In this document: positions 35,883 through 38,309 of the stretch, piece after piece
Layout of the letters: each line of letters starts with the position of its first letter
Position numbering within the stretch: position 1 is the first letter of the stretch
Assembly (NCBI GenBank): GCA_021807675.1
Contig: JAKBCR010000013.1
Span: 1 to 42,059, forward strand
Origin: Pseudomonadota bacterium
GTDB taxonomy: Bacteria; Pseudomonadota; Gammaproteobacteria; Steroidobacterales; Steroidobacteraceae
Length of the DNA stretch: 42,059 nt
Reading direction: 5' to 3'
The notes under the pieces: generated by a model
What the model was told of the DNA's origin: nothing
Seen by the model: the letters and a program-made list of their open reading frames with translations, nothing else
Databases searched by the model: none
Position numbers and translations under genes: made by a program

Positions 35883-36027
35883 GGGTGTCCATCCGTGGAC
35901 ACCCGCTCGGCAGAGCGAAGCGATGCTTCGCTGAATGAATCGCCTGGAGCGATTCATGACGACGCGCAGCGTCGGCCCCGAGGGGCGAGGCCCAGGATGG
36001 GCCGAGCAAAGGCACCGCCTCGCCCCC
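35883..36027 (+). repeat. Multi-hairpin dispersed repeat, copy 1 (upstream of icd)
   Basis: The region between the DAHP synthase gene and icd (35806-36099) holds no gene but a chain of perfect hairpins. It opens with a 9-bp stem (35883-35891 with 35896-35904). Then come CGCTC/GAGCG (35904-35908 with 35913-35917), competing with AGCGAAGC/GCTTCGCT (35914-35921 with 35925-35932). ATGAATCGC/GCGATTCAT (35935-35943 with 35949-35957) and CGACGC/GCGTCG (35960-35965 with 35969-35974) follow. A final outer stem GGGGCGAGG/CCTCGCCCC (35982-35990 with 36018-36026) encloses GGCCCA/TGGGCC. From about 35904 on it matches the copy at 38186-38309 with only a handful of changes; the first hairpin does not match. 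Confidence 0.9.
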
Positions 36028-36087
36028 GTGCCTGAACCAACTACGTGAGTCTGTGTACCAATTCAGAATGAACCGCCGCATTGCCGG

Positions 36088-36093
36088 TACAAT
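36088..36093 (+). promoter_or_regulatory. Candidate -10 box (TACAAT) abutting the icd start
   Basis: TACAAT lies 6 nt before the icd ATG at 36100. There is no Shine-Dalgarno in between, so a transcript would begin at about the ATG itself. The best -35-like hexamer (TTCAGA, 36062-36067) is 20 nt away, which is too far to be convincing. Confidence 0.4.
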
Positions 36094-36099
36094 TACCGC

Positions 36100-37428
36100 A
36101 TGTATTACGAGCACATCGCCGTCCCGCCCGAGGGACGCAAGATCACCGTCAATCCCGATAACAGCCTGAGCGTTCCCGACAACCCGATCATTCCCTACAT
36201 CGAGGGGGACGGGATCGGCATCGATGTCACGCCCGCAATGGTGCGGGTGGTGGATGCCGCGGTCGGGAAGGCGTACGGGGGCAAGCGCCGGATCAGCTGG
36301 ATGGAAGTCTATTCCGGCGAGAAGGCCAACGCTCGGTACGGGCAATGGTTTCCCGATGAGACGCTGCATGTGCTGCGGGATTACGTAGTCTCGATCAAAG
36401 GGCCTCTCGGCACGCCTGTGGGGGGCGGCATCCGCTCGCTCAACGTGGCGATGCGCCAGAGCCTCGATCTTTATGCCTGCGTGCGCCCGATCCGCTATTT
36501 TCCTGGCGTCGCGAGCCCGATGCAGGATGCCAGCCTCACCGACATGGTGATCTTCCGCGAGAACACCGAGGACATCTACACGGGAATCGAGTGGCCCGCC
36601 GGCTCGGCGGAAGTGCACAGGCTCATCGCCTACCTGCAGAAGGAATTCGGCGTCACGGGCATTCGCTTTCCTGCGAGCTCCGCGATCGGCATCAAGCCGG
36701 TATCCAAGGAGGGCAGTCAGCGCCTGATCCGAAAGGCCATCCGGTATGCGATCGAGAACGATCGCGTGTCGGTGACCCTGGTGCACAAGGGCAATATCAT
36801 GAAGTTCACGGAAGGCGCCTTCCGCAACTGGGGCTACCAGCTCGCCAAGGAGGAGTTCGGCGCCCGCGAGATCGACGGGGGTCCGTGGCTCAAGTTCCCC
36901 AATCCACTCACCGGAACCGACATCATCGTCAAGGACGTGATCGCGGACAACTTCCTGCAGCAGGTGCTGCTGCGCCCGGAAGAGTACGATGTCATCGCGA
37001 CACTCAACCTGAACGGCGACTATGTATCCGATGCGCTCGCAGCGCAGGTGGGCGGCATCGGCATCGCCCCGGGAGGCAACATCGGCGACGGGCTCGCCGT
37101 GTTCGAGGCGACGCATGGGACAGCGCCCGGATTCGCGGGCAAGGACCGGGTCAATCCCGGCTCGCTCATCCTCTCGGCGGAGATGATGATGCGCTATCTC
37201 GGCTGGAGGGAGGCCGCCGACCTCATCATCAAGGGTGTCGCCAATACCATCGCCCACAAGGAGCTCACCTATGACCTCGCGCGCCTGCGCGAGGCGATCA
37301 AGGCCCCGAAGCGCGAGCTCGCGGCCCGCAAGAGCGTGGAGGAGGACCTGCAGCGGCTCATCCCCGGGGCGAAGCTCATGAGTTGCTCGGGCTTCGCCAC
37401 GGCCGTCATCCGGCACATGGACGACTGA
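36100..37428 (+). CDS. icd: NADP-dependent isocitrate dehydrogenase
   Basis: This TCA enzyme converts isocitrate to 2-oxoglutarate with NADP+. The 442-residue product (E. coli 416) has [20 protein letters not shown], the substrate/phosphorylation loop [13 protein letters not shown] with Ser113 exactly where E. coli Icd is phosphorylated by Ace[30 protein letters not shown] and [19 protein letters not shown]. The C-terminal [20 protein letters not shown] is the cofactor loop. The conserved Ser113 context suggests AceK control is possible, but aceK is not in this window. The structured repeat lies directly upstream, and the stop is followed closely by the UDG frame. Confidence 0.97.
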
Positions 37429-37468
37429 TATCAAACAGGCGCGGACGAACGGCGGACGGCGGCCGGTA

Positions 37469-38116
37469 CTGCCGGTCGCTCGGAGCGAGACATACGATCC
37501 GGGCTGCACCCGCTGCCCGCGGCTGGCGGAGTTCCTGGCGGAGGTGCATGGGAGCTATCCGGATTACTGGGCGCGGCCCGTGCCCTCGTTCGGCGCCGCG
37601 GACCCGCGCATCGTCCTCGTCGGCCTCGCGCCCGGGCTGCACGGGGCTAACAGGACGGGGCGGCCGTTCACCGGTGACTACGCTGGCGAGCTCCTTTACC
37701 AGACGCTCTACGAGGCGGGCCTCGCCACACGGGCGCAGTCCGTATCGGCGGACGATGGGCTCGAGCTGAAGCATGCGCGAATCATCAATGCGGTGAAGTG
37801 CGTGCCGCCCGGCAACAAGCCGCTGCCGGAGGAGATCCGTGCCTGTAACGGCTACCTGAGGGCCGAGCTCGCATCGCTGAAGCGCGTGCGGGTGGTGCTG
37901 GCGCTCGGCAGGGTGGGGCACGACGCCTTCCTTCTGGCCTCGGGGCTCAAGCGCAGCGCGTTTCCGTTCGGGCACGGGCGCGAGCACCGGCTCGAGGAGA
38001 CGCGGTACCTCGTCGACTCGTATCATTGCAGCCGCTACAACACCTCGACCGGAGTGCTCACCGAGGCGATGTTCAGGAAAGTCGTGAGGCGCGCCTGCGA
38101 GCTTGCCCGTCTATAG
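37469..38116 (+). CDS. Family 5 (UdgB-type) uracil-DNA glycosylase, start codon unclear
   Basis: This base-excision repair enzyme has an Fe-S cluster. The frame encodes YDPGCTRCPRLAEFL (two N-terminal cysteines, codons 37505 and 37514), WARPVPSFG, the active-site region VLVGLAPGLHGANRTGRPFT, NAVKCVPPGNKPLPEE with the third cysteine, LALGRVGHDAFL and the CYHPS-like DSYHCSRYNTSTG. These match UDG family 5 (Thermus UDGb, mycobacterial UdgB). The open frame runs from 37382 but holds no ATG, GTG or TTG before GTG 37544, which would remove both N-terminal cluster cysteines. I therefore give CTG 37469 as a provisional start; ATC 37430 is another near-cognate option. A frameshift near the icd stop was looked for and not seen. 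Confidence 0.82.
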   Translation: MPVARSETYDPGCTRCPRLAEFLAEVHGSYPDYWARPVPSFGAADPRIVLVGLAPGLHGANRTGRPFTGDYAGELLYQTLYEAGLATRAQSVSADDGLELKHARIINAVKCVPPGNKPLPEEIRACNGYLRAELASLKRVRVVLALGRVGHDAFLLASGLKRSAFPFGHGREHRLEETRYLVDSYHCSRYNTSTGVLTEAMFRKVVRRACELARL

Positions 38117-38151
38117 CGCTGGATCCGGGCCTCCTGCGCGAACGAAGCGCT

Positions 38152-38309
38152 GCTTTGGGCAAAACGCGTGGTTCTTGCCCAAAGCTCGCTCGGCGGAGCG
38201 AAGCGGTGCTTCGCTGAATGAATTGCCTGGAGCGATTCATGACGACGCGCAGCGTCGGCCTCGAAGGGGCGAGGCCCAGGATGGGCCGAGCAAGGCACCG
38301 CCTCGCCCT
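38152..38309 (+). repeat. Multi-hairpin dispersed repeat, copy 2 (upstream of uvrC)
   Basis: The second copy fills most of the gap 38117-38372. It opens with an 11-bp stem GCTTTGGGCAA/TTGCCCAAAGC (38152-38162 with 38175-38185), unrelated in sequence to the opening hairpin of copy 1. The shared core follows: CGCTC/GAGCG (38187-38191 with 38196-38200), AGCGAAGC/GCTTCGCT (38197-38204 with 38208-38215), ATGAATTGC/GCGATTCAT (one G:T pair where copy 1 has G:C), CGACGC/GCGTCG, and the GGGCGAGG/CCTCGCCC outer stem around GGCCCA/TGGGCC. By eye the cores differ by about five substitutions and two single-base indels. Both copies have the same orientation and each precedes a plus-strand gene. Confidence 0.9.

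Follow-up and report, generated by a model that had tools for sequence, protein, structure and literature searches.

The two near-identical repeats that precede icd and uvrC in the window, by which we mean the whole 42,059-nucleotide stretch of DNA analysed here, are very probably two non-autonomous mobile palindromic elements, each a 74-75 bp core of four hairpins (core A, hairpins H1 to H4) nested in a repeat, of variable length, of a second, mosaic palindromic family (family B). Core A is dispersed, its stems covary, it is inserted stepwise within another repeat, it is absent from the same sites in relatives and its insertion point is fixed. The best-supported reading of its function is that of a mobile palindromic passenger. 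Situated upstream of icd and uvrC, the window copies are ordinary intergenic ones and give no hint of a function tied to their sites. Their parts are given in Table 1.

Table 1. Parts of the two window copies of core A and of the family B repeats that hold them.
Feature	Positions	Strand	Basis
Copy 1, left arm of host repeat B, including the opening hairpin 35883-35904 and the CGCTCGG..GCTTCGCT hairpin	35807..35934	+	BLAST to empty B copies: L026 75% (35807-35935), L029 91% (35843-35905)
Copy 1, inserted four-hairpin core A, 74 nt	35935..36008	+	Exact difference from empty L026; model R1 96.3 bits
Copy 1, H1: ATGAATCGC / loop CTGGA / GCGATTCAT	35935..35957	+	RNAalifold fold; 6 of 9 H1 pairs changed on both sides in 34 copies
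Copy 1, H2: CGACGC / GCA / GCGTCG	35960..35974	+	Consensus fold and covariation count
Copy 1, H3: GCCCC / GA / GGGGC	35975..35986	+	3 of 5 pairs changed on both sides
Copy 1, H4: GGCCCA / GGA / TGGGCC	35989..36003	+	Consensus fold and covariation count
Copy 1, right arm of host repeat B	36009..36034	+	L026 93% over 36008-36034
Copy 2, left arm of host repeat B, including its opening hairpin 38152-38185	38115..38217	+	L023 88% (38116-38228), L029 83% (38133-38218)
Copy 2, inserted four-hairpin core A, 75 nt	38218..38292	+	Junctions of copy 1 save one A on the right; R1 96.5 bits; G032 and G062 have B without the core here
Copy 2, right arm of host repeat B	38293..38348	+	L023 88% over 38292-38348

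A sequence-only reading of this stretch had described a near-identical pair of cores, and BLAST alignment confirms it: positions 35904-36025 and 38187-38308 are 95% identical, with four mismatches and two one-base gaps, while the remaining BLAST matches of the cores in the window are short, weak ones, with an E of 0.028 at best. The stems named in that reading are present in the window sequence and both opening hairpins are exact as claimed, with GGGTGTCCA at 35883 pairing with TGGACACCC at 35896 in copy 1 and GCTTTGGGCAA at 38152 pairing with TTGCCCAAAGC at 38175 in copy 2. Its long outer stem is absent from the consensus fold, since RNAalifold resolved 34 copies into four separate hairpins. 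Family B spans approximately 35807-36034 and 38115-38348, wider than had been seen from the window, and has copies of its own (at least 63 matches to a 331-bp query). One of these, L026, located elsewhere in the same genome, represents the exact empty form of copy 1: in L026 GCTTCGCTGA runs directly into AAGGCACC, and in copy 1 the same two sequences are separated by 74 nt. In copy 2, 75 nt lie between a left junction identical to that of copy 1 and AGGCACC. No clear target-site duplication was observed at the exact junction of copy 1. The opening hairpins had been taken for a variable module in which pairing is kept while the sequence is replaced, a proposal that we reject: the hairpin of copy 1 matches one B module and that of copy 2 the next one, and the full-length B copy L029 bears both modules together and in order. 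Nothing has therefore been swapped with pairing kept; the hosts of the two copies represent separate stretches of a single chain. The H1 hairpin is a palindrome, and some core A copies are closed by a second H1. At one gene junction found in both the own genome (L027) and genome G2_26 (L034), the core is flanked by closing H1 hairpins and points in opposite directions in the two, as though it had been inverted or inserted anew. The sole Rfam match within the window is a tRNA gene at 40861-40933.

In the own genome (G000, a draft of 430 contigs and 97% completeness, for which copy numbers are lower bounds), at least 48 BLAST matches to the core were obtained at E<=10, at least 42 of them at 1.3e-5 or better. 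Using R1, a covariance model built from 34 copies, we found at least 98 matches at E<=1 and at least 70 at E<=1e-3, with at least 68 non-overlapping core A copies at the latter threshold. Short, multi-copy and devoid of an internal transposase, core A thus has these features of a MITE. The distribution within the genus is patchy, ranging from zero copies in several near-complete genomes (G001, G016, G023, G026, G029, G034 and G036) to at least 66, 60 and 43 in others, and this patchiness could partly reflect loss. Between codirectional neighbours the element occurs in both orientations (22 sense, 15 antisense). By eye, three copies lie within long open frames that stay in register on either side, namely in an alpha/beta-hydrolase-like protein (L123, C12:9040-9113), a UvrA-like protein (L110, C428:90245-90315) and a glycosidase-like protein (L138, C61:12202-12273). 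Phage carriage was also rejected for the exact H4 motif, a scan of viral contigs giving no match to it.

Filled and empty sites are found between relatives. The gap between the UDG gene and uvrC is at most 56 bp long and free of any repeat in 27 of 30 genus genomes; at this site G032 and G062 carry family B alone, and the own genome carries B with core A inside. Of the 20 genomes in which the gap upstream of icd was measurable, 16 have 24-98 bp, and the own genome has 294 bp; the gap reaches 178 bp with a B-like repeat in G032, 148 bp with a copy that by eye resembles the core in the other orientation in G014, and 245 bp with no recognisable repeat in G061. Together with the dispersed copies, these sites support the REP/MITE-like mobile family that had been proposed from the window. 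The insertion point is fixed, usually just after G and with A as the first base of the element (..TGA, ..TTCGA), and at the class level the base triplet at the element start is NGA in 87 of 100 copies. The hisB copies common to G000, G032, G035 and G062 are inherited and not newly inserted, so copy number overstates the number of insertion events.

The conserved structure with covariation that had been suspected is supported as well, all four stems (H1-H4) covarying. In alignment A1, which consists of 34 hand-picked rows with diverged forms left out, 95.9% of the cells pair and 14 of 25 pairs changed on both sides; the covariation score of 0.254 lies above that of shuffles (0.086) and above relatedness-preserving controls with the partners slid (0.021-0.057). 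Alignment A2, fitted to the covariance model and containing 54 distinct class-level and enterobacterial copies, shows 21 of 25 pairs changed on both sides and a score of 0.526 against 0.148 in shuffles. Both scores are somewhat flattered, because A1 was hand-picked and A2 model-fitted, and covariation cannot tell RNA from single-stranded DNA. GGA occurs in the H1 loop of 134 and the H4 loop of 131 of 158 genus copies, and in the H1 and H4 loop regions of 94 and 100, respectively, of 100 class-level copies. Neither a lone pair of copies nor a lack of covariation, the outcomes named in the sequence-only reading as speaking against it, was found in the genome search and the alignments.

To describe the gene context we surveyed 158 copies (68 of 70 matches from G000, 54 of 63 from G032 and 36 of 44 from G035, leaving out two overlapping G000 matches and 17 lower-ranked or adjoining ones of G032 and G035), calling genes with a home-made codon-usage program. 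In 26 of these copies the element begins at zero distance from the stop of the upstream gene; the next commonest single distance accounts for 6 copies, and 58 copies lack such a gene within 160 bp. TGA is the stop in all 26, and the overlapping start is ATG in 20, GTG in 3, TTG in 2 and CTG in 1. The downstream gene is readable in 24 of the 26, 17 times through an in-frame N-terminal extension and 7 times through a coupled mini-ORF (for example MTKSSGTILDGGSRPEGVSR) with a stop that overlaps a new start; the remaining two show neither read-through nor mini-ORF by the rule applied. Random one-base shifts (10,400) gave a readable share of 27.5% (nominal binomial 6e-12), a comparison in which the junction copies are only partly independent, since hisB is represented three times and a DegT-type aminotransferase and murG twice each, leaving no more than 22 distinct junctions. 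A stricter gene threshold yielded 25 junction copies, 24 of them readable under a looser overlap rule. In 9 of the 17 extensions no other in-frame ATG or GTG occurs in the first 45 codons (TTG not counted), and the family models begin after the extension, at residue 55 in HisB, 43 in GatB, 44 in PyrF, 41 in SdhD, 37 in HemF and 56 in MurC. Nine more copies come after a start codon with no upstream stop detected; these too are readable by the same rule, and five others are not. The argument that single-base indels speak against a coding role consequently holds for the window copies, which are intergenic, and fails for the family, in which 24 of 26 copies at stop-codon junctions are read through or coupled. 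In L129, L131 and L142 a mini-ORF resembling MTKSSGTILDGGSRPEGVSR is followed by a second type of repeat, with a new overlapping start and N-termini like M..DSRKRGSEGAGTEPR. We found no paper on core A at start codons in the open-licence literature, which is weak evidence of absence.

Two operon junctions were compared across the genus. Among 29 genomes the gatA-gatB junction is bare in 16, with 14-bp spacing and an overlap of the ATGA or GTGA type; it has other short spacers in 5 and the element or its eroded remains in 8, the copies being eroded in G018, G004, G007, G060 and G012. In all 29 gatB is reachable, directly in 24 and via a mini-ORF in 5, one of which (G005) lacks the element. The hisC-hisB overlap occurs in 26 of 27 genomes, four of which carry the element (75-144 bp, all in frame), and orthologous hisB copies differ by a compensated H4 pair.

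Beyond the genus, R1 matches the core at E<=1e-5 in 132 of 369 genomes sampled across the class, representing 110 of 272 genera, in a search with rough E-values and 12 candidates scored per genome. From 130 matches we retained 100 class-level copies by leaving out low-scoring, antisense-overlapping and duplicate-locus matches; being the best-scoring loci, they are not a fair sample. A same-strand tRNA gene lies within 300 bp of 41 of these 100 copies, and at 7 of 29 class-level loci the element is followed by 17 nt matching the 3' end of the adjacent tRNA; among the 158 genus copies, just 8 lie within 400 bp of a tRNA gene. Five of the 100, from three genomes, come after a start codon from which reading continues. 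A tRNA intron was rejected as an identity for the element, as joining the flanks gave a tRNA in 0 of 208 copies. Near a tmRNA gene, two class-level copies (L406 and L419) are surrounded by sequence like the end of its T-arm, and at L404 (G082) three copies 217 bp apart form a tandem array resembling the 5' part of tRNA-Ser. An 87-nt Salmonella query matches 671 of 5,426 E. coli genomes, and all seven E. coli and Salmonella places that were read match R1 with 67-82 bits. These places lie between what we take to be ERIC ends, the ERIC-like left motif being clear in five of the seven, and ERICs reportedly carry insertions of about 70 bp.

The element has partial likenesses to several known systems. 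As a separate element, core A uses ERIC as one of several hosts, family B being a different host repeat, and ERIC itself is known to fuse with reading frames (PMC2759123). The Rickettsia palindromic elements are short palindromic mobile repeats lying in frame in protein genes (PMC10969869, PMC2229807), and by sequence 17 of the 26 junction copies are likewise palindromes in frame within conserved protein genes. The Rickettsia elements differ in their length (about 150 bp, PMC10969869) and in the bacteria that carry them, whereas core A lies mostly behind an overlapping stop/start, sometimes as a mini-ORF with a second overlap. In Rfam, RtT RNA (RF00391) recalls the class-level copies beside tRNA genes and matches at L413, L421 and L407, but the three matches stay at 31-36 bits (best 35.8) against a gathering score of 45, and 150 of the 158 genus copies are not near tRNA genes. 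Similarly, AaHKsRNA22 (RF02902) gives full-length matches at the element in L058, L396, L419, L405 (two), L413 and L425, yet every one scores 29-36 bits (best 36.1), below the gathering score of 39.8.

Considering covariation, the fixed insertion point and the nested insertions, core A may move as a folded single strand, with the hairpins and the conserved GGA loops as the probable features that the mobilising enzyme recognises. Recognition of a folded single strand would keep the pairing while the stem sequence drifts, and would make the loops of other hairpins frequent sites. In the genus, a subset would have landed exactly behind start codons overlapping the stop of the upstream gene (ATGA). 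At such a place an insertion would survive only if the downstream gene stays readable, and the survivors would be read by ribosomes either as N-terminal extensions or as a coupled mini-ORF.

A mobile palindrome of this type raises the question of a REP/BIME repeat mobilised by RAYT, a link that the sequence-only reading had suggested checking. Core A shares with such repeats the mosaic palindromes, their mostly intergenic position and the occurrence in both orientations, and Y1 transposases, the RAYT superfamily, have a match in 11 of 41 genus genomes, including an intact gene in G003 with its 20 copies. It differs in having four hairpins, and Y1 genes do not track copy number across the genus: no Y1 candidate was found in G032, a 97% complete genome with 63 copies, there is no match at E<=1e-3 in this genome or in G014, G018, G022 and G035 (13-44 copies), and G023 and G024 combine an intact Y1 gene with zero copies. 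The own genome holds just a single broken Y1 gene, presumably IS200-like, in two pieces on C373 (L031). A RAYT gene is thus missing from these many-copy genomes, and we rejected a RAYT-driven REP, which we regard as very unlikely; the transposase search, which covered Y1 only, identified no mobilising enzyme. A recent duplication of a single segment of the window, to which the presence of just two window copies 2.3 kb apart and 95% identical would point, is refuted and has next to no chance of being correct, given the dozens of copies on other contigs, the different family B arms of the window copies and their different states in G032.

The main functional rival is a structured RNA selected at its sites, for instance a portable CsrA/RsmA-binding element, given that the H1 and H4 loops present GGA and that the H4 loop frequently has the form CA(N)GGA with T, C or A next, which we take to resemble the CsrA consensus. 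Stems that covary freely while GGA stays are what such an element would show, and 93 of the 158 genus copies have CA(N)GGA[TCA] close to their 3' end; this is, however, also the extent to which the fuller motif is kept, and the 15 antisense copies among codirectional neighbours, the several near-complete genus genomes without the element and the fact that recognition by a transposase would equally give conserved loops make this rival quite unlikely. It is also unlikely, though somewhat less strongly so, that the junction copies are adaptive, with the N-terminal peptides (MTKSSGTILDG...) or the coupling of the mini-ORF tuning the expression or function of the downstream enzymes. The readable downstream gene in 24 of 26 copies, against 28% after a one-base perturbation, and the hisB extension common to four genomes would fit adaptation, but purifying selection on the downstream gene alone gives the same pattern and gatB copies are eroded in several genomes. 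Moreover, the changes that compensate in the stems alter the peptide, which indicates that the peptide is not what is conserved.

Returning to the mobile passenger, the sequences incline us towards a joint reading in which core A would be a mobile element of four hairpins, spread across the class, whose sequence tolerates being read as protein and which inserts just behind NTG starts followed by A and at ATGA overlaps. Essential enzymes (GatB, HisB, SdhD, MurC, MurG, PyrF and HemF) would thereby gain an N-terminal peptide while translational coupling is kept, and frame-breaking copies would survive as a mini-ORF ending in a new overlapping start. The same element would settle in tRNA-end repeats and inside ERIC, so that the ERIC insertions, the RtT-like repeats and the N-terminal extensions would be one mobile family.

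If this is true, a single covariance model unites repeats whose locations make them seem unrelated, namely the inserts of ERIC, repeats beside tRNA and tmRNA genes and intergenic palindromes, and one of these can colonise the overlap of stop and start, where an operon is tightest, and leave translation intact. Annotation may be wrong about start sites of this kind or about the extensions. It would also make testable how folded DNA picks its targets and how often repeats give bacterial proteins new N-termini.
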